Positions 23,647 to 37,367 of a DNA stretch of 64,000 nt are shown piece by piece (the stretch's first letter is position 1; every line of letters begins with the position of its first letter). Made by a program: the position numbers and the translations under genes. Under the pieces are notes generated by a model, which saw only the letters and a list, made by a program, of their open reading frames with translations, did not search any database and was not told where the DNA came from. Source of the DNA: an uncultured Flavobacteriaceae bacterium (GTDB lineage: Bacteria > Bacteroidota > Bacteroidia > Flavobacteriales > Flavobacteriaceae). Location of the stretch: assembly GCA_943789365.1 (NCBI GenBank), contig CALSTV010000001.1, forward strand, positions 1-64,000, read 5' to 3'.

Positions 23647-23816
23647 GTGCCTTCGAGTACCTCAGGCACCTCTTCCTCAGGCACCTCTTCCTCAGGCACC
23701 TCTTCCTTAAGCACCTTTTCCTCTAACATCTTTTTCTTAGACACTTTTTTCTCTGACTCCTTTTCCTCTAGTACCGGTCTTTGTTCCCTCCCGGTGACTG
23801 AGGCTCTCGAAGGCAC
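23647..23816. repeat. Degenerate 15-bp minisatellite flanked by inverted repeats
   Basis: Units of 15 bp (CTCAGGCACCTCTTC) are exact three times from about 23661, then decay through about five more copies to 23775. Two outer arms, 23647-23665 and 23798-23816, are inverted complements at 17 of 19 positions (core GTGCCTTCGAG). The open reading through the plus strand (GTSSS repeats) is low-complexity and I do not count it as a gene. The right arm touches the stop codon of the GIY-YIG gene. Confidence 0.7.
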
Positions 23817-25269: not shown

Positions 25270-26532
25270 TCATCCCTTCCCATTTTTAATAGCTCCCTCA
25301 GCAACCCTACCCAATTCACTTTCCAATTCTAAATTCGTAATTGAAGATTCGTAATTCTTAACAGTAACCTGCCCATTCATTAGCAATGGCAACAACCAAT
25401 CTCTTAATTCCGATAGCTTTTGGTTTTCTAATTTTAGCGTATTAATCTGAGCGAAAATTGCTTTTGTTTTAGTATCAAAATTTGAAATATTTTTTTCATC
25501 AAACATTAGTGGCATTTTTCTTAATGAGCCTAAGCCAATAAATTTCTGAATACTTCCAGCAATGACATTTCCCATATACCTTTGCATATCGTATCCTCTT
25601 AGATATGTGTATATATAATTTTTCAGCTTTTGATTTGCTGATGTTTTATAAAGTGCAACATTCTTGATGGCAAAATCTATGTTTTCTTCTTCAACTTTGT
25701 AAACAGTTCCAATATTCCCAATCATTGAAAAAAGAATATCTCCTGTTTCAACTTGGCTACGTTTATTTATATTTATATAATCTTCTTCACTTATTGAATT
25801 TGCTTTATAAAAATCTAATCCTTCTAACTTTAAATGTTTCGATGTTATTAGCTTAAACCCTTTGTCTATGGGTTTTGGCGAATCATGTGTACCATCTTTT
25901 ACTTCAATAACTTTATTTATTTCTTTCACTTCCCACCCAACAGGAATCTCTCTTTTCAACGCTTCATTAAAAACCATTTTTCCACCAGATGATTTGTATG
26001 GCTTCTCGACTCCGCTCGAAGTGACATGAGGGAAATCGAACTGTACAAACCAATAGTCGTATAGCATTTTCGCCATTTTTTCTAACTCTTGGTTTATTTT
26101 GTTGTTGACTTCTATTTTAGCATCTAAATCTGAAAGTACTTTTGCTATTCGTTTTTGGGTTGACAAATCAGGTAAATTTATTGGAACGTCGTAATAAGCC
26201 CCAAAAGTCATACTTGGCACTCCTGTTCCTGTATTTAAATGACTTAAGTCTAATAGTTTAATGTAATTATATAAAAAATAAGGGTCTGCTTTATTTTCAT
26301 CAACAATTGAATAATAAATTGTATCAACAGTCCAAAATACTTTATCCACATATTGTATATTACTTAAAGTTCCTTTTCTGGGTAACAGAATACTTTTTCC
26401 TTCATAGAGATATTCGTCCACATATCTCATTAGACCTCCACTTCCATAAACAGGAATATTTCCATCTTTAAGATGTTTATAATCTCTCCCATTTTTTATT
26501 TCAAGCAATTCTTTGAGCTTATATTCAATCAT
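25270..26532 (-). CDS. hsdS: Type I restriction-modification specificity subunit HsdS
   Basis: A 420-aa protein that recognises DNA for the methylase and restriction complex. Two target recognition domains: TRD1 about 1-130 (ending NLPDLSTQKRIAKVL), TRD2 about 200-350, each followed by a conserved coiled-coil helix (SDLDAKIEVNNKINQELEKM; INTLKLENQKLSELRDWLLP). It overlaps hsdM by 8 bp. Two oddities: residues about 168-177 (PHVTSSGVEK) come from a REP-like repeat inserted in frame in the central conserved linker, and the C-terminal tail after MNGQVTV (KNYESSITNLELES) is encoded by the AATTACGAATT-type repeat. Both seem tolerated. Confidence 0.9.
   Translation of the reverse strand: MIEYKLKELLEIKNGRDYKHLKDGNIPVYGSGGLMRYVDEYLYEGKSILLPRKGTLSNIQYVDKVFWTVDTIYYSIVDENKADPYFLYNYIKLLDLSHLNTGTGVPSMTFGAYYDVPINLPDLSTQKRIAKVLSDLDAKIEVNNKINQELEKMAKMLYDYWFVQFDFPHVTSSGVEKPYKSSGGKMVFNEALKREIPVGWEVKEINKVIEVKDGTHDSPKPIDKGFKLITSKHLKLEGLDFYKANSISEEDYININKRSQVETGDILFSMIGNIGTVYKVEEENIDFAIKNVALYKTSANQKLKNYIYTYLRGYDMQRYMGNVIAGSIQKFIGLGSLRKMPLMFDEKNISNFDTKTKAIFAQINTLKLENQKLSELRDWLLPLLMNGQVTVKNYESSITNLELESELGRVAEGAIKNGKG
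25332..25358. repeat. AATTACGAATT-type repeat forming the hsdS 3' end
   Basis: AATTCGTAATT is followed by a second ATTCGTAATT 4 nt later. The same core occurs at 28158-28192 and 28536-28564 in this locus. In hsdS it is read as KNYESSITNLE. Confidence 0.6.
26002..26028. repeat. REP-like palindrome inside hsdS
   Basis: On the coding strand the segment CACTTCGAGCGGAGTCGAGAAG has the imperfect palindrome TTCGAGCGGAGTCGAGAA. This type of sequence is familiar as a dispersed intergenic repeat in Flavobacteriaceae; here it lies in frame within coding DNA. Confidence 0.55.
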
Positions 26533-28150
26533 ATTTTAAACTCTTTAAATTCAACTGAATCTCTTTTTCTAAACTTTTAGACTCTGCAAACAAACCTTCT
26601 AAATTACTTTCAAAACCCTTCATTTTTGCTGTAAATTCTTCTTCTGTAATATCTACATATTCAATTTTCACTTCAAAATACTGCCCAGCACTTAAAGAGT
26701 AATTTTTGGCTTTTATGTCGTCATAAGAAACCACCACAGAAAAATCATCTTTTACTTCTTTGGCATTGAAAACATCAATAATTTGTTGTTCTTCAGCGTC
26801 ACTTAAAACCGTTTTTTGGTTCTTGCCTTCTTTTACTTTGGTTCCCAAATTAGAGGCATCTATTAGCACTACATCTTCGGTATTGGTTTTGTCTAAAAAC
26901 AAAATACTCACGTTGGTACCCGTGGTCGCAAATATGTTAGAGGGCATAGAAACCACCCCTGCCAACATTTTACTTTCCACCAATTTTTGGCGTATTTTTT
27001 TATCTATACCACTTTGTGCGGTTATAAAACCTGTAGGTACCACGATCGCCGCTTTTCCTTTGGCAGATAGGCTGTGCATAATATGTTGAATGAACAACAA
27101 ATAGATCGCCATCGATTCTTTTTTGGTTTTCGGAATATTGGGTATTCCTGCAAAAAAGCGTTCTTTGTTGGCTTTAGAATCTAAATCAGCACTGTAATCC
27201 GAAAAATCTAGTTTAAAAGGAGGATTCGAAACAATATAATCGAACTGTTCTAACTGTCCGTTTTCTTGTTTGTGGTACGGATGTAAAATGGTATTTCCTT
27301 GTATGATGTTGTGAATGGAATGTACCAGATTGTTCAAAATCAGATTCAACCGCAACAAGCCCGAAGACTTCTGAGATATATCTTGCGAGTAAATGGTACA
27401 CTTGTCTTCTCCAATGGCATGGGCTATGTTCATCAACAGGGTACCAGAACCAGCACTGGGGTCGTAACAGGTAACATTGTCGACATTAGCATCCGTCACC
27501 AAACAAGCTGCCATAATTTTTGCCACGGCATGTGGTGTAAAATATTCCGCATATTTGCCCCCACTGTTGGTGTTGTAATCTTTTATCAAGTATTCAAAGA
27601 TTCCTGCAAAAAAGTCGAATTTTTGAGTAAATATATGCTCAAAACTAAAGGCAACCAATTTATTTACGATTGCTTTGCAAAACGCATCTCTATTGTCAGT
27701 TACATACTTGCTTATAGCTTCAAACAGCACCACTTTTTCACCTCCCTGTGTCAGTACAGAAAAGATATCGTTGTTGGCGCTGGCAACGGCTAAAAAGGTT
27801 TCGTCGAAAATTGTTGCAAAATTGTCTTTGTTTTGGTTTTCAAACAATCGAGATAATAAATTCTTCGGTGCAAAAACAGCGGTGTCTTGGCTAATTTGCA
27901 TCGTTAACAATTCTAAATCGTCATCAGAAAGTTCATTTAAAGCTACGTCAAAATCTTCAGCCGCTGCCAATGCAGGGTCAATTTGTTTTAACTCATATAC
28001 ATATTTGTCATTCAAGAATTTGTATAAAAAAACTTGCGTGATTATTTTAAATTCATTTCCGTCATTTCCCAATCCGGCATTGGCACATACGCTTTTTAAA
28101 TCGTCTATAAGTGTCTTGGTTTGGGTTTCAAATTGTGCTGTGTTTGTCAT
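26525..28150 (-). CDS. hsdM: Type I restriction-modification DNA adenine methyltransferase HsdM
   Basis: A 541-aa N6-adenine methyltransferase subunit. The N-terminal helical HsdM_N domain covers about 1-170. The catalytic domain has the SAM-binding CYDPSAGSGTLLMNIAHAIG near residue 225 and the catalytic NPPF (VSNPPFKLDFSD) near residue 310, followed by SMAIYLLFIQHIMHSL and FLDKTNTEDVVLID. Length and motifs are complete. With HsdS it forms M2S, with HsdR the restriction enzyme. It overlaps hsdS by 8 bp, and downstream order is M-S. Confidence 0.95.
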   Translation of the reverse strand: MTNTAQFETQTKTLIDDLKSVCANAGLGNDGNEFKIITQVFLYKFLNDKYVYELKQIDPALAAAEDFDVALNELSDDDLELLTMQISQDTAVFAPKNLLSRLFENQNKDNFATIFDETFLAVASANNDIFSVLTQGGEKVVLFEAISKYVTDNRDAFCKAIVNKLVAFSFEHIFTQKFDFFAGIFEYLIKDYNTNSGGKYAEYFTPHAVAKIMAACLVTDANVDNVTCYDPSAGSGTLLMNIAHAIGEDKCTIYSQDISQKSSGLLRLNLILNNLVHSIHNIIQGNTILHPYHKQENGQLEQFDYIVSNPPFKLDFSDYSADLDSKANKERFFAGIPNIPKTKKESMAIYLLFIQHIMHSLSAKGKAAIVVPTGFITAQSGIDKKIRQKLVESKMLAGVVSMPSNIFATTGTNVSILFLDKTNTEDVVLIDASNLGTKVKEGKNQKTVLSDAEEQQIIDVFNAKEVKDDFSVVVSYDDIKAKNYSLSAGQYFEVKIEYVDITEEEFTAKMKGFESNLEGLFAESKSLEKEIQLNLKSLKYD

Positions 28151-28157
28151 AAGTATT

Positions 28158-28192
28158 CAATTACGAATTTTAAATTGTGAATTACGAATTGG
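28158..28192. repeat. AATTACGAATT repeat, left border of four-helix-bundle cassette
   Basis: CAATTACGAATT, then AATTGTGAATTACGAATTGG. It supplies the last codons (NSNS) and stop codon of the four-helix-bundle gene on the minus strand and reaches to 8 bp before the hsdM start. Confidence 0.6.
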
Positions 28193-28538
28193 AGTTTCTA
28201 ATTGTCTTTTGGATACTTCCAATAATTCGTAATAATTCTTCTATTTCTTTTAATAATGGTTCACTTTGTTGTTTGGTTAAATAATCAGTATCGGTTAACA
28301 ACCTTATCCAATACTTTGTTTCTCTTGCTTCTTTGTATGAAATAGTCAACTTCGCAAAGAAATCTTTTTTACTTTGACCACCAATGGCTTCCTCTATATT
28401 TGCACCTATAGATGTTCCCGAACGTACTAATTGTTTACTTAAAATATATGCTTTCTTTTCAGATTGAAGCATTTTAAATGTATTCACAATTTTAATTGCA
28501 AAAGCATACGATTTTGTTTGAACAACATTTTCTTTCAT
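28182..28538 (-). CDS. Four-helix bundle protein (23S rRNA intervening-sequence type)
   Basis: A 118-aa protein of the S23/IVP four-helix-bundle family: SYAFAIKIVNTFKMLQSEKK, then LSKQLVRSGTSIGANIEEAI, GGQSKKDFFAKLTISYKEAR, ETKYWIRLLTDTDYL. The SGTSIGANIEEA segment is the family hallmark. Relatives are encoded in rRNA intervening sequences or near diversity-generating elements (Avd-like), and bind nucleic acid; the cellular function is not settled. Here it stands between the RhuM-Fic gene and hsdM and is enclosed by inverted AATTACGAATT repeats at both ends, as a small mobile cassette would be. Confidence 0.88.
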   Translation of the reverse strand: MKENVVQTKSYAFAIKIVNTFKMLQSEKKAYILSKQLVRSGTSIGANIEEAIGGQSKKDFFAKLTISYKEARETKYWIRLLTDTDYLTKQQSEPLLKEIEELLRIIGSIQKTIRNSNS

Positions 28539-28564
28539 AATTCGTAATTACACATTCGCAATTA
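28536..28564. repeat. AATTCGTAATT repeat, right border of four-helix-bundle cassette
   Basis: AATTCGTAATTACACATTCGCAATT lies directly before the ATG of the four-helix-bundle gene and touches the stop of the RhuM-Fic gene. It is the inverted counterpart of the repeat at 28158-28192. Confidence 0.6.
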
Positions 28565-29533
28565 TTTATTTCTATTCAATACGCTAATGACCAATCTTTT
28601 TACGGATTCCATTTCTTCTGGTTTGCTAGAAGCGATAAACAAAGTCAAACTGGCTAACGTATCGTTACTAATTATAGGTTGATTTTGCTTGTTAAACAAC
28701 AGGTCATTCTGTTGTAAAAACTTTAAAAAACAAGCGGCAGCAATGCGTTTGTTGCCATCTACAAATGAATGATTTTTTACAACAAGATACAATAGCATTG
28801 CCGCTTTTTCTTCGATACTTTTGTAAAAATCGTTGGTTCCAAATCCTTTTTCAATTTGAGCAATAGAACTTAAAAAGCTTTCATCTTTTTCCTTACCAAA
28901 TACATCTGAGTCAAATTCTATTAGCATTTGGTTGATGAGTGCTTGATAATCTTTCAGATTCGGATACACGGCTTCTTTTGTAGTTACCCCTTTAACATCC
29001 AATTCTTCATGATCGTAATCGTCTAACAAACTCAAACCTTTTGCAAATACAGTAAGCCATTGATAATCCTCCTGTTTTTCTTCAATAGCCCTGCTTAAAA
29101 TTTGAATACCATTTTTTAAAACCTGTACTTCTTGCTCTTTTTGCGCCAAGCGTTTTTCATTAATCGTATACCCCTTTACTAAATGATCTTTTAAGGTATT
29201 CGTTGCCCATTGTCTAAATTGTGTAGCTCTTAACGAGTTTATTCTGTAACCAACTGAAATGACAATATCTAAATTATAGACGCTCTGTGTACGTTTTACT
29301 TTTCTCTTTCCTTCTGTTTGAACTATTAAGGATTTCTTAATAGTTGCTTTTTCTTTTTGCTCCCCTTCGAAATATATGTTTTTTAAATGCATATTAACAT
29401 TTGGAATGGTTGTTTGAAAAAGGTCAGACAGTTGTTTTTGTGTCAACCAAATAGTATCGTCCTGTAATGTGACCTGAAGTTGGCTTGTACCATCTTCGGA
29501 TTGATAGATTACTATTTTATTTGACGCTTCCAT
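28562..29533 (-). CDS. RhuM/Fic-DOC fusion protein within the type I locus
   Basis: A 323-aa protein. Residues about 10-150 form the RhuM (virulence) domain, with IVIYQSEDGTSQLQVTLQDD and TIWLTQKQLSDLFQTTIPNV, then YNLDIVISVGYRINSLRATQ. The C-terminal part (about 190-323) is a DOC-type Fic domain with HSFVDGNKRIAAACF, the H-x-F-x-D-G-N-K-R active loop, which in Doc toxins phosphorylates and in Fic enzymes AMP-transfers. Such fusions are common as passengers between hsdR and hsdM. It may be a phage-triggered backup to restriction or a toxin; that is inference. Intact. Confidence 0.9.
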   Translation of the reverse strand: MEASNKIVIYQSEDGTSQLQVTLQDDTIWLTQKQLSDLFQTTIPNVNMHLKNIYFEGEQKEKATIKKSLIVQTEGKRKVKRTQSVYNLDIVISVGYRINSLRATQFRQWATNTLKDHLVKGYTINEKRLAQKEQEVQVLKNGIQILSRAIEEKQEDYQWLTVFAKGLSLLDDYDHEELDVKGVTTKEAVYPNLKDYQALINQMLIEFDSDVFGKEKDESFLSSIAQIEKGFGTNDFYKSIEEKAAMLLYLVVKNHSFVDGNKRIAAACFLKFLQQNDLLFNKQNQPIISNDTLASLTLFIASSKPEEMESVKRLVISVLNRNK

Positions 29534-29681: not shown

Positions 29682-32600
29682 CTACGCGACATTTCCATTA
29701 TATTCATTAATATATTCTTTAACCAAGATGTTGTTAATGCGTTTTACATCCCTTGCACTGATGTCTAACTGTTGTTTGTTTTTAAATTGATTGATTACCA
29801 AACGCATCATCATTTTTTCTACATAACGTTCGTTTTCTAAAATTTTAGCATTCTGCAAAATCTCATGGTCTACCTCTGTTTTCAATCCTTTTAAGGCTTC
29901 AAAAAGTTTACGCTCATTTTCTGTTAACGGATTCTTTTCTAGCAATCGTTTATGAATACGTGCGTATTTAGCATCATAATCATACTTTGCTTTAAGCAAT
30001 TGATTTTCTCTTTCTAGCTTTTTAGCCTTGTCATAAATTTCATTCAAGGCTTTTATATTGGCTTCCATTTCTTCTTTAGAAACTTCAGTTAAATTTTTCT
30101 TTTTAAACAAACGTTCCAACTCTTCTCGTAAAGAAATAAAAACTGGGTCTTTCTGATCAAAATTATCACCTAAGATTTGACGTGTTTTTTGCAAAGCACC
30201 TTTTAGCTCATCCGCCAACACCATTTCTTCTTCTTTTATTTTGGTAAAAGCAAAAATGACATCTTCTAAAGCCATGTTTAAAACATTGTTGGTTTCTAAA
30301 TTTGTTTCAAGGGCTATTTTGGCATTTATCAAAGCCAATCTATCATTGGTAATTCTACACAACACAACCAATTTTCTAAAGTCTAACTGCTCTAATAATT
30401 CAAAATTACCAGAGAGTCGAATTAAGTTATAGAGCTCTTTAGAGTTGTTTAAAACCTTGGCTATTTTTCTTATCTCTGAGCGGTCATTTATCTCAGAGAT
30501 TTGATGACTAAAAATTTCTGCATTTATCGTATCAAATTTAAACAGTACATCTTTTATTTCTTCGATTTCTTTTGCTATTTCCTCCGCAGATTTAAACAAA
30601 TTGGAATAATGCTCCATCTCATCCCCCAACTCAGACTGTAATTCGTTAAAATAATCTTGGTTGGTTTTGTCAAATTCTTTTTGAATATCTGCAAAATCTA
30701 CAACATAACCATATTTATGATTTTTGTAGGTTCTGTTAACTCTAGTAAGCGTTTGTAATAAGTTATGTGACTTTATTTTACGACCTATGTATAATTTCTT
30801 TAGACGTTTGGCGTCAAAACCTGTGAGCAACATATTGTATACGAATAATAAATCGATGTTTCCGGCTTTATAATCTGCTACCCAATCATTTCGATCTTGC
30901 TTGGTACCAACGTCATGCAAAATTACTTGTGCAGTAGTTACTTTACTATTTTGAATCTTCTTTTTCCCATAACTCTCAGGTTCTTCTGCAACTTGAGATA
31001 AATAAACCTCTTCTTGGCTTGCATAGGTATTATTGAAAATTTCTTGCATCATTTTTGCCTGCTCAGAAGAATCGCAAACTACCATACCACCAATAGAGTT
31101 ATCGTTCATGGCAATTCTTGCCTGTTCTATATCTTGAACAATATAATTTAACATGGGCTCTACAAAGGTATTATGCGCAAAGATTTTCTTTTTATCGGCA
31201 TCCCCCTCCAATACTTTAATTCTTTCTAAAGTCTCTTGAAGTGTCAGCTTGTAATTAGTTTCAATTTCTTCACGAATCAGACGCAAAGTATAACCATCTT
31301 TAATAGATAAATTGTAATAATATTTATGAATATAATCTCCAAATAAGGTTTTAGAATTGTATTCCTTTCCTAAAAGAGGTGTTCCTGTCAATCCAATTTT
31401 AACGGAGTGCTTGTCAGCCAATTCTAAGTTGGCTAAAAAGCTTCCTTTCGGATTGTAACTTCTATGCACTTCATCTAAAAAGAAAACACGTTGTACGCTT
31501 AAGTTGTAATCGTTGTTTTTAATAACATCTGGGTCGTCTTTAAATTTTTGAATATTGACAACCGTTATTTCAGCTTTACCAGAACTGTTATGAATTACGT
31601 TTGTAGATTTTATATCCCTTGTAAATTCTTCTCTGCTATTAACTTTATGCACCACCAAACCCCGAGCACCAAATTCTTTAGCAGCTTGGTTTAATAAATC
31701 TATTCTATCTACAATAAAATAAAATTTAGGAATGGTGTTTTTCTTCTGAAAATAATCAGTCAGATGCTTTACATTGAAATAAGTCAAGGCTGTTTTTCCA
31801 GAACCCTGTGTATGCCAAATGATACCTTTTTTGAGACCGTTTTCTAACTTATGCTCAATAGCTTTGGTTGCAAATATTTGAGGATAACGCATTACATGTT
31901 TCTCCAATCCATTTTCTTCTTCTACATAGGCAAAGGCATATTGCAAAAGAAACTTTAGACGTTCTTTTTGGAATAGAGAAGTTGCAATTGTATTGGTTGC
32001 TGTATTTGGACTTTTATTTGAGGCAAATTCGTTTGAATTTTTAATGCTGATTAAATTGTTATCCTTTAAAACAAAGTTTTCAACTTCATCAGCGATAGGA
32101 ACTAATAATTCATCTAAATCAAACTGTTCTTCTTCTCTAAAGTAATTGAATATTGGTTTTCTGTAATTTGTAGTACTGTAAAAAGCACCTTCTAACATTT
32201 GCGTATCATCATTGCTATATTGCATGTTGTTAGAAAACACCATCAATTGCGTTAGGTTGATAAACTTTCTAAACTTCTTGTTTTGAAAACGCGTTTGCAT
32301 TCTTTTGTGTTCCGCCAAAATACCATCTCTGTTATTTGGCTTTTTAACTTCTATAAAAACAAGTGGCATTCCGTTGATTAGAAGAATGATGTCTGGCCTA
32401 AAATTGTCGTCATCTTTTTCATAGGGCAACTCGGTTACAACATGAAATGAATTGTTTTCAAAATTTTGAAAATCGACCAATTTAACTCCAGATTGATCTA
32501 TCAATTTGTTGTAAAAAGCTCTTCCTAAATCTTCATTTTCTAAAATAAGTGAAGTCTCATTATAAAAACGCTCTGCTTCTTTCTGAGATAGATCTGGGTT

Positions 32601-32750
32601 GATTTCTTTTATTTTTTGGTAAAATATATCGGTAAAAATATTCGTGCTTATATCCCAATTATTTTCTTTAATAGATAGGTATTTATACCCTAACCGTATC
32701 AAATGTAAAATAGCGGGAATTTTTACTCTAGAATCTTCGTTAAACTTCAT
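29682..32750 (-). CDS. hsdR: Type I restriction endonuclease subunit HsdR
   Basis: A 1022-aa motor and nuclease subunit. The N-terminal nuclease domain shows RPDIILLINGMPLVFIEVKK (PD-..-ExK, residues about 118-138). The SF2 translocase follows with Walker A IWHTQGSGKTALTYF near residue 315, the DEAD-like FLDEVHRSY near 430, GLTGTPLLG near 460 and RVNRTYKNHKYGYVVDFADI near 685. The C-terminal 250 residues are helical. Length and order are complete. It is the first gene of the minus-strand R-(RhuM-Fic)-(four-helix)-M-S locus; a 148-bp gap without signals separates it from RhuM-Fic. Confidence 0.95.
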   Translation of the reverse strand: MKFNEDSRVKIPAILHLIRLGYKYLSIKENNWDISTNIFTDIFYQKIKEINPDLSQKEAERFYNETSLILENEDLGRAFYNKLIDQSGVKLVDFQNFENNSFHVVTELPYEKDDDNFRPDIILLINGMPLVFIEVKKPNNRDGILAEHKRMQTRFQNKKFRKFINLTQLMVFSNNMQYSNDDTQMLEGAFYSTTNYRKPIFNYFREEEQFDLDELLVPIADEVENFVLKDNNLISIKNSNEFASNKSPNTATNTIATSLFQKERLKFLLQYAFAYVEEENGLEKHVMRYPQIFATKAIEHKLENGLKKGIIWHTQGSGKTALTYFNVKHLTDYFQKKNTIPKFYFIVDRIDLLNQAAKEFGARGLVVHKVNSREEFTRDIKSTNVIHNSSGKAEITVVNIQKFKDDPDVIKNNDYNLSVQRVFFLDEVHRSYNPKGSFLANLELADKHSVKIGLTGTPLLGKEYNSKTLFGDYIHKYYYNLSIKDGYTLRLIREEIETNYKLTLQETLERIKVLEGDADKKKIFAHNTFVEPMLNYIVQDIEQARIAMNDNSIGGMVVCDSSEQAKMMQEIFNNTYASQEEVYLSQVAEEPESYGKKKIQNSKVTTAQVILHDVGTKQDRNDWVADYKAGNIDLLFVYNMLLTGFDAKRLKKLYIGRKIKSHNLLQTLTRVNRTYKNHKYGYVVDFADIQKEFDKTNQDYFNELQSELGDEMEHYSNLFKSAEEIAKEIEEIKDVLFKFDTINAEIFSHQISEINDRSEIRKIAKVLNNSKELYNLIRLSGNFELLEQLDFRKLVVLCRITNDRLALINAKIALETNLETNNVLNMALEDVIFAFTKIKEEEMVLADELKGALQKTRQILGDNFDQKDPVFISLREELERLFKKKNLTEVSKEEMEANIKALNEIYDKAKKLERENQLLKAKYDYDAKYARIHKRLLEKNPLTENERKLFEALKGLKTEVDHEILQNAKILENERYVEKMMMRLVINQFKNKQQLDISARDVKRINNILVKEYINEYNGNVA

Positions 32751-33833: not shown

Positions 33834-34353
33834 TTAGTGTTTAGTTTTGAATGTTGAGTTTTAAGTTTAGAATATAACCACCTGCGGTGGATTTTACTTT
33901 GGTTGTTAAAAATCGTTTGACAGCAATCTACAAGGGGTGTCTATGAAAACTTAAGAAAGTTAGCTTAAGCAATAATAACTGACATACGCTTTGCCTTCTC
34001 TAACTTAACACTTAAAACTCAACACTTAAAACTTAAAAAAAAAGCCCCATCACAAATATGCGATGAGGCCTAAAACCTTTAGGGTAGTATAATTTTGTTG
34101 TCAATACATGTATCTAACCCCTAGCAAGACAACGTAGATAAATTACTGCTATCCTAAACAAACTAATATAAACTACAAATACAAAAACTGAATCGTTATT
34201 GTTTTGCTCTTCAAAGATACGTCCCTTCTAAGCTTGTACAGAATTTTTACAGGTGAAGTAGACCGAATGTGCAGTGAAGTGTCTAGACAATAAGTTGAAC
34301 TGACCCTTATTAGAAATAAGAAAAAACAAATAGGTTGTTTACTACAATTGCAA
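33834..34353. other. Gene-free region with inverted repeat and terminator
   Basis: 520 bp. A TGTTGAGTTTTAAGTTT segment at about 33851 has inverted counterparts (CTTAAAACTCAACA, AAAACTTAAA) at 34010-34037, a pattern of dispersed flavobacterial repeat. No ORF with coding character. Confidence 0.45.
34033..34069 (-). terminator. Terminator on the minus strand
   Basis: Read on the minus strand, GCCTCATCGC (34060-34069) pairs at 8 of 10 positions with GTGATGGGGC (34044-34053) and runs into a T-tract. It would end the dgoK-eda transcript, about 280 bp after the aldolase stop. Confidence 0.55.
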
Positions 34354-37224: not shown

Positions 37225-37252
37225 AGGATTGTTTTGTGCTAATGGTGATTGG

Positions 37253-37367
37253 TTACTGGTTACTGGCTTTCGGCTACCGGCTTTCGGCTGACGGCTTACT
37301 GCTACTTGTTACTGGCTTTCGGCTGACGGCTGACGGCTGACGGCTACCGGCTTTCGGCTTTCGGCCA
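37253..37367. repeat. 7-bp tandem array (CGGCTNN)
   Basis: Units CGGCTTT, CGGCTGA, CGGCTAC run mostly head to tail between 37253 and 37367, with an interruption at CTGCTACTTGTTA. The 7-bp period is not coding-compatible and lies in a gap between genes. Typical dispersed flavobacterial repeat. Confidence 0.75.

Follow-up and report, generated by a model that had tools for sequence, protein, structure and literature searches.

Does a small gene that stands between inverted repeats inside a type I restriction locus belong to that locus, or is it a passenger that brought its own ends? The question was raised by positions 1 to 64,000 of contig CALSTV010000001.1 (GenBank assembly GCA_943789365.1, an uncultured Flavobacteriaceae bacterium), called the window below, in which a gene for a four-helix-bundle protein lies between a RhuM-Fic fusion gene and hsdM. 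A reading made from the sequence alone had proposed that this gene and its repeats form a minimal mobile unit of about 400 bp. On the evidence given below, we consider it rather probable that the feature is a selfish cassette of ~0.4 kb of the same type as the intervening sequences (IVSs) of 23S rRNA, located outside rRNA and closed by inverted arrays of a seven-base word.

Inverted arms, filled alleles and empty alleles

The gene is a member of PF05635/TIGR02436 (S23p or 23S rRNA-intervening sequence protein, IVP), its product scoring 97.6 bits against PF05635 (cut-off 33.8) and 110.4 bits against TIGR02436 (cut-off 24). Like a 23S rRNA IVS, the window cassette is a unit of ~0.4 kb with an S23p/IVP open reading frame (ORF). 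It is not in a 23S rRNA helix, and rRNA was not found in the 18 other IVP loci that were scanned.

Inspection of the window showed that AATTACGAATT occurs four times, at 28159 and 28180 on the forward strand and at 28539 and 25332 on the reverse strand, every copy in the type I locus; the mean in 100 dinucleotide-preserving shuffles was 0.11, and none of them reached four. Four consecutive AATT boxes at 7-bp pitch were present solely at 28159-28190, as two overlapping matches (0.00 in shuffles). Read on the gene strand, the 5' arm has four box positions, one of them degenerate, with the ATG directly after, and the 3' arm contributes the two final codons with the TAA stop, leaving 8 nt to the ATG of hsdM. 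The repeats at the two ends are worn arrays, inverted relative to each other, in which AATT boxes recur every 7 bp. The opposite orientation of repeats at the two gene ends, one touching the ATG and the other giving the last codons and the stop, had been described in the sequence-only reading and was confirmed by reading both arms; the fixed AATTACGAATT sequence that it took for the repeat turned out to be a worn heptad array. The lag-7 self-match score of the arms was 4.0 on each side, under the threshold of 10 used below for calling arrays, and the heptads are visible just as boxes at 7-bp pitch. The arms were recognised despite this low score because of the box pitch and of homologues with longer arrays (L045/L152, L048/L151). 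The cassette has terminal inverted repeats, as transposons and insertion sequences do, and the predicted minimum-energy RNA fold pairs both arms around the gene.

An HsdM search of 397 family genomes yielded a set of near relatives, whose surroundings were retrieved as 24 regions. In addition to the window, two of these regions (L045 and L048) contain all three of RhuM-Fic, four-helix-bundle gene and hsdM. In four others (L041, L043, L046 and L049) a short spacer rich in A separates RhuM-Fic from hsdM, the gene being absent, and the remaining 18 had neither small gene between hsdR and hsdM. All three filled alleles showed arrays on both sides in opposite orientation, and no array was found in the spacers of the four empty ones. 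Three consecutive AATT boxes at 7-bp pitch were seen in L045 and L048 exclusively at the cassette ends; such a triple box was present once in L053, away from the junction, and the other 21 regions had none. Relative to the window copies, the gene was 84% (L048) and 86% (L045) identical and hsdM of both was 87% identical, which makes a single shared insertion the simplest reading for the three alleles. The next nearest relatives of the gene, 79 and 78% identical (L153 and L154), come from two additional genomes and have repeats of this kind too; the contig of L154 differs from the one bearing hsdM of that genome. Judged by its distribution among the 24 regions (Table 1), RhuM-Fic too is a variable passenger of the type I locus.

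The IVP gene was found on at least 25 plasmid records, 20 of them cyanobacterial. Eight cyanobacterial plasmid loci and one from Treponema were inspected; in all nine, each end has 7-bp arrays no more than 200 bp away, and inverted matching was the stronger in seven. Perfect arms of 33/33 bp were observed on two Nostoc plasmids: in Nostoc sp. C052 the ATG is preceded by (AATTCGT)4AATT, and (AATTACG)4AATT stands at the stop, 33 bp each, and Nostoc N6 has the same layout with AATTCGC/AATTGCG. At three sites the insert could be compared with an empty counterpart. The C052 insert replaces ~190 bp found in five other plasmid copies; compared with a sister plasmid that the strain also carries, its right flank is 99.8% and its left flank 90% identical, an inequality that places the cassette at a recombination boundary. 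A cytosine-methyltransferase gene, intact in three other records, is broken by the insert of Nostoc N6 and ATCC 53789, with ~322 bp replaced, and the insert of Aulosira replaces ~26 bp. At all three sites the arrays coincided with the insert edges or came within a few bases of them, with six extra bases past the 3' array in Nostoc N6. No target duplication was seen at these sites, host DNA being replaced instead. The left edge was at or near a host AATT: at the methyltransferase site it was at CAATTCG, the array's very word, and in Aulosira the AATT was within ~ten bases. Searches for empty sites of L266, L262, L260 and L265 gave no usable pair. Among phage records the IVP gene was rare (at least 2 of 50,697), and L269, the one phage locus inspected, had no array.

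Judged from the sequences of the sites compared, gene and arms are present or absent together, and the arms are at the edges of the insert. Empty sites had been proposed as a check in the sequence-only reading; joint presence or absence was indeed found at the hsd junction (three filled and four empty alleles), and the three plasmid comparisons agree with it beyond the original locus. As a separate observation, the four-helix-bundle genes of L260 and L265 are flanked by cas2 and cas1 on Nostocales plasmids and run antisense to these two genes; a figure legend in PMC10910872 lists the 23S rRNA IVP domain among CRISPR-linked domains.

Table 1. Positions in the window of the cassette, its arms and the genes of the type I locus
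Feature	Coordinates	Strand	Basis or remark
Four-helix-bundle (S23p/IVP) gene, 118 aa	28182..28538	-	PF05635 and TIGR02436 profile scores
5' arm AATTGCGAATGTGTAATTACGAATT, degenerate heptad array AATTGCG-AATGTGT-AATTACG-AATT	28539..28563 (28563..28539 on gene strand)	-	abuts ATG, overlaps RhuM-Fic stop
3' arm AATTCGTAATTCACAATTTAAAATTCGTAATT, five AATT boxes at exact 7-bp pitch	28159..28190 (28190..28159 on gene strand)	-	inverted relative to 5' arm
RhuM-Fic fusion gene, upstream neighbour	28562..29533	-	between hsdR and hsdM in 6/24 homologous regions
hsdM, downstream neighbour, used for finding filled and empty alleles	26525..28150	-	profile search
hsdR of type I locus	29682..32750	-	profile search
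hsdS, carries orphan array	25270..26532	-	profile search and homologue alignment
Orphan array of the window word in the hsdS C-terminal coding region, peptide KNYESSITN	25325..25356	-	peptide without counterpart in 23 aligned homologues

A seven-base period with a changing word

Several sets of IVP loci were compared. The named subfamily set contains the best 80 of at least 586 confirmed loci and is biased to relatives of the query; 79 of its loci were used for threshold counts and 78 for end matching. The classic set, as we label it, contains 80 loci, the first listed match of 80 genomes, and is biased to high Pfam scores; it omits at least the window's own genome, G094 and G079 (match at contig edge), and nine of its loci, with an in-frame stop or without a clear ATG, were retained. 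The family set was reduced from 30 loci to 27, as L160, L174 and L179 did not pass a motif filter. A further 32 loci outside Bacteroidetes were chosen by record title; many of them are metagenome bins and possibly contaminated, and five are Ignavibacteria, which some taxonomies assign to Bacteroidota. Gene starts were set by a nearest-ATG rule. Control genes were drawn from the same loci, so that some of them adjoin orphan arrays.

A fixed motif was of little use. It was found that AATTNNNAATT stands on both sides of just 2 of the 80 high-scoring (classic) IVP genes, which suggested that there were no general repeats; the changing word defeated this test, which was replaced by the lag-7 measure. 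Among ten IVP matches of the own genome, AATTACGAATT was present within the 1.5-kb flanks of the window copy alone. The pattern AATTACGAATTACGAATTACGAATT (up to one mismatch) was present in just 5 of 149 family genomes, and its word was therefore rejected as a family-wide repeat; GCAGAAT, AGGTATG, GAATGCT and CACAATG are among the other words in arrays of the family set and the named loci.

When the word was left free, upstream and downstream flanks alike showed self-match maxima at lags 7, 14 and 21, in the named, classic and family sets. The upstream means at these lags were 0.47, 0.43 and 0.41 for the named set and 0.41, 0.37 and 0.37 for the classic set; the lag-7 value elsewhere in the same loci was 0.27. 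In the named set the threshold was exceeded upstream in 56/79 loci, downstream in 48/79 and on both sides in 37/79, as against 20, 26 and 3 of 288 control genes, and other lags were rare (lag 6 in at most 3/79, lag 8 in at most 1/79). The corresponding counts of the classic set were 24, 17 and 11 of 80, with 19, 16 and 4 of 423 for controls. Outside Bacteroidetes, an upstream array was observed in 28/32 loci and a downstream array in 23/32, and lags 5, 6, 8 and 9 gave 0 or 1. Array density within 150 bp of the gene was 3652 per Mb in the named set, compared with 62-221 per Mb at 150 bp-4 kb, and 1000 per Mb in the classic set, compared with 0-63 per Mb beyond. Repeats found equally around unrelated genes would have spoken against the proposal of the sequence-only reading; in the named loci arrays are far denser beside IVP genes. 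A survey of such genes, which it had suggested for flavobacterial genomes, thus bore out 7-bp arrays beside IVP genes as general, and the AATTACG word as not general. For arrays no more than 150 bp from the gene, lengths cluster at 30-34 nt, or about five boxes (75/196), with 33 nt as the commonest exact length and medians of 33 nt in the subfamily and 32.5 nt in the classic set. A rule of five boxes always was dropped, since perfect arrays of a Dolichospermum plasmid span 21 to 60 nt.

The two ends of one cassette match each other in inverted orientation. Aligned to its own reverse-complemented downstream flank, the upstream flank of the named loci scored 22.95 on average (n=78), compared with 14.56 (sd 0.47) for permuted partners and a maximum of 16.31 in 5000 permutations. 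Similar differences were obtained outside Bacteroidetes (24.43 vs 13.46 (0.90), 30 of the 32 loci) and in the classic set (15.99 vs 10.55 (0.30), n=80). Direct alignment of the same flanks gave 15.35 (named), 15.47 (outside Bacteroidetes) and 12.55 (classic), and inverted matching was the better in 65/78 named, 24/27 family and 58/80 classic loci. For six cassettes of the own genome the matching was 16.7 on the diagonal and 10.9 off it. It was also found that word similarity tracks protein identity (n=105), with a Mantel r of 0.41 (maximum of 2000 permutations 0.18), or 0.40 once the GC difference was removed. The general feature is the 7-bp period with inverted matching, the word varying among cassettes.

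With regard to orientation, the gene was co-directional with both neighbours in 61/75 named, 26/26 family and 78/80 classic loci (165/181 in total); control genes were so in 197/301 named and 326/451 classic cases (523/752 in total). The neighbours themselves are diverse, 62 distinct upstream families being counted across the 75 named loci. Both neighbours run in the opposite direction in four of the eight cassettes from cyanobacterial plasmids (L260, L261, L263 and L265). Taken together, the sense bias and the antisense plasmid cassettes were read as insertion in either orientation followed by persistence in sense. RNA-mediated insertion, which the sense bias had prompted, was set back by the same four antisense cassettes.

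Weighing the cassette reading

If the cassette reading is right, the element would insert as DNA, by replacement where the host has a short match to its word, and would use no transposase of its own; insertion would cost some host DNA, could occur in either orientation, and copies would persist mostly in sense between co-directional genes. In the transcript the paired arms may form a stem resembling the RNase III-cut stem of 23S rRNA precursors, which would make the passenger little harmful. The protein probably binds its own array, as RNA or as single-stranded DNA. The window cassette would have entered the RhuM-Fic/hsdM junction, probably in an ancestor that the window shares with L045 and L048, and would now be wearing out; an array without the gene would have entered hsdS.

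The closest precedent is the 23S rRNA IVS of Coxiella burnetii. IVSs as such are already known, ORF and inverted ends included, and so are heptamers before the ORF in Coxiella. In that element, which measures ~0.43 kb and is called selfish, heptameric repeats in tandem immediately precede the ATG of an S23p ORF and the inverted termini form a 28-bp stem; RNase III cleaves it in vitro, and the same paper leaves the function and origin of IVSs unclear (PMC4990558). The Coxiella element shares with the window cassette an ORF of the same family, stem-forming inverted termini and the sense orientation in the transcript; it is located in helix 45 of 23S rRNA, whereas the window cassette lies between protein genes of a type I locus and has another word and worn arms. 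In view of this same anatomy at a different address, we regard IVSs and these cassettes as one class of element. PMC4990558 was the sole paper joining S23p and heptamers in the open-access literature searched, in which family-wide heptad arms outside rRNA, matched words and empty sites with replacement were not found. Insertion sequences in 16S and 23S rRNA genes of the candidate phyla radiation, some of which encode a 23S_rRNA_IVP domain (PMC11270868), differ in that they are in rRNA genes and that most of their domain-bearing ORFs are homing endonucleases, and the passages of that paper on them mention no heptad arms. Avd/bAvd of diversity-generating retroelements (PF22296; PMC10053308) has a related four-helix-bundle fold; the 118-aa protein scored 20.6 bits against PF22296, below the cut-off of 40, and a reverse transcriptase was absent among the four neighbours scanned (hsdR, RhuM-Fic, hsdM and hsdS).

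A number of observations weigh against the cassette reading. Excision, transcription and transposition were none of them observed in this comparative sequence analysis, and there is no transposase or nuclease inside the cassette, the sole gene between the arms being of the S23p family. In Coxiella the S23p protein is probably not produced in vivo and the RNA is the more important, according to the authors (PMC4990558), which speaks against a role of the protein there. The predicted RNA fold of the window cassette was just mildly better than that of shuffles (z -2.1, with 3/100 shuffles equally stable), and the arm stem was missing from the centroid structure. Direct matching of the ends was the better in 10/78 named, 3/27 family and 16/80 classic loci and in the plasmid loci L265 and L268. 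In the own genome, the own downstream flank was the best match for just 4/6 upstream flanks, the long main arrays of L003 have the same orientation on both sides (39/60 matches of its word), and arrays without the gene exist. Covariation of the two ends was sought within one conserved site and not found: own partners matched no better than those of orthologues (18.8 vs 19.4 at rlmB-M48, 16.9 vs 17.8 at thiD, 18.3 vs 20.0 at hsd), and thus there is no sign of compensatory change keeping the stem. The closer family set was weaker, with arrays upstream in 8/27, downstream in 7/27 and on both sides in just 3/27 loci, and the classic set also has lag-8 arrays (7/80 and 5/80). Finally, three plasmid sites are too few for a junction rule, and at the C052 site the host AATT was present in just three of the five empty records.

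The alternative that survives best is autoregulation, which we regard as possible, though a good deal less so than a cassette. Here the gene would be an ordinary regulator gene and the heptad arrays its operators in mRNA or DNA, wrapped by a pentameric ring with one heptad per subunit, and the inverted 3' copy would be a decoy or a terminator-like element. TRAP, which wraps its repeats one per subunit, provides an analogy. The array lengths near the gene agree with such a ring, as does the contact of the window 5' arm with the start codon. By sequence, the closest solved structure to the 118-aa protein is 2rld (E 5.3e-32), a single entry with five chains, and a Xanthomonas homologue is called a homopentamer (PMC4990558). 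The cassette protein is thus probably pentameric by homology, and the five chains together with the 30-34-nt arrays suggest that a pentamer might read five units. Nevertheless, some arrays exceed 100 nt, and arrays more than 500 bp from the gene peak similarly (33/118 at 30-34 nt). Autoregulation moreover leaves the empty sites, the replaced host DNA, the orphan arrays, the changing words and the inverted arms after the stop unexplained.

It is unlikely that the unit is an ordinary transposon remnant or a miniature inverted-repeat transposable element that depends on a transposase supplied in trans and carries the four-helix-bundle gene as a passenger. The terminal inverted repeats would suit it, and so would a gene-less inverted pair that lies ~0.6 kb from the cassette of ATCC 53789 and has nearly the same ends as that cassette (L298 1949-2116). 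Words differ among cassettes, even within one genome, which is hard to reconcile with one transposase; the three plasmid sites show replacement and no target duplication; and the correlation of word with protein identity is expected if gene and word belong together, with the caveat that the loci were sampled by the gene and that other passengers would escape notice. Repetitive extragenic palindromic (REP) sequences with their REP-associated tyrosine transposases (RAYTs), and the REP doublets called REPINs, offer a related picture: word-like repeats in inverted pairs, dispersed gene-less copies and one candidate partner gene. The cassette differs from them in that its protein is no Y1 transposase, its repeats have a 7-bp period and its insertion replaces host DNA.

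Arrays without the gene

Orphan arrays were looked for in 464 kb of the own genome, that is, the window and twenty 20-kb stretches, at a lag-7 score above 14. Six arrays were found, all of them intergenic although 85% of the sample is coding by the ORF rule, and none beside an IVP gene. In the same scan lags 5, 9, 10, 11 and 13 gave no array, and lags 4, 6, 8, 12 and 15 one to four each. Two words of resident cassettes recur in the orphan arrays. A reversed-pattern control gave 0 vs 7 matches for the second of these word searches; for the L003 word it gave 34 vs 60 and was uninformative, the reversed word being nearly the word itself. In the 50 kb of a Dolichospermum plasmid that were read, 12 of the 13 perfect 7-bp arrays are built of AATT words, and these 12 fall within 6.4 kb around the IVP gene.

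These six arrays, together with published heptameric repeats of Xanthomonas and Nostoc (PMC4692102) and of Beggiatoaceae (PMC4679880), in whose main texts neither 'S23' nor 'four helix' occurs, might suggest that small dispensable genes merely end up among unrelated intergenic heptameric repeats, an explanation that we consider the least probable of all in view of the array densities near and away from the gene in the named and classic sets, the better matching of own ends than of other cassettes' ends, and empty sites without arrays.

The published repeats deserve attention in their own right. GGGAATC and GGGGA(C/T)T are intergenic heptamers of Xanthomonas and Nostoc, for which detailed literature is said to be unavailable and polymerase slippage is quoted as a hypothesis (PMC4692102); TAACTGA repeats of Beggiatoaceae have no evident mechanism of horizontal transmission (PMC4679880). 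They resemble the cassette arms in their seven-base units, mostly intergenic location, short arrays and occasional inverted pairs, and differ in that no S23p-family partner protein is proposed in the passages on them in these papers. The heptameric intergenic repeats of cyanobacteria known as short tandemly repeated repetitive (STRR) sequences are of the same kind. Tentatively, and with less confidence than for the cassette itself, the S23p/IVP protein could be the missing protein partner of over-represented heptanucleotide repeats, a pentamer that would read about five units of its own word and drive the spread of that word as cassettes and gene-less arrays. In that case 23S rRNA, with its IVSs, would be no more than the most familiar insertion place of a much wider class of mobile elements. 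A one-gene cassette with heptad-array ends links the origin of heptamers, their transmission and the function of IVSs, and makes all three testable.

One orphan array is located within the type I locus, whose genes follow in the order hsdR, RhuM-Fic, four-helix-bundle gene, hsdM and hsdS, all on the reverse strand. The repeat had been thought to have become the 3' end of hsdS; the array is real, and it lies inside the last 30 codons, not at the very end. No counterpart of KNYESSITN was present in the 23 hsdS homologues that could be aligned (23 of the 24 regions). For annotators this is a warning that tails of the NYE..ITN type can be repeat insertions and not protein features. Other short repeat-like inserts (SLRGTKQSH, QVQDD) were noticed in the hsdS linker after MNGQVTV in L042, L044 and L055, so that this linker looks like a tolerant landing place.

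Further arrays were noted in passing. An intergenic 7-bp GGCTTTC array without a four-helix-bundle gene occupies 37243-37365 of the window; this word is also found around the own-genome cassette near C1:227545 and at several other places. A second orphan 7-bp array, of the CACTTAAAACT type, is located at 34003-34038, and a similar word is seen in a gene-less inverted pair at L276 6520-6596. The window also contains an array of 15-bp period at 23660-23769. Elsewhere in the own genome, four copies of an inverted AATT-type 7-bp array were found (L065-L068, at 392396, 581667, 2740964 and 3169519), and the copy in L067 adjoins, by eye, a tRNA-like sequence.
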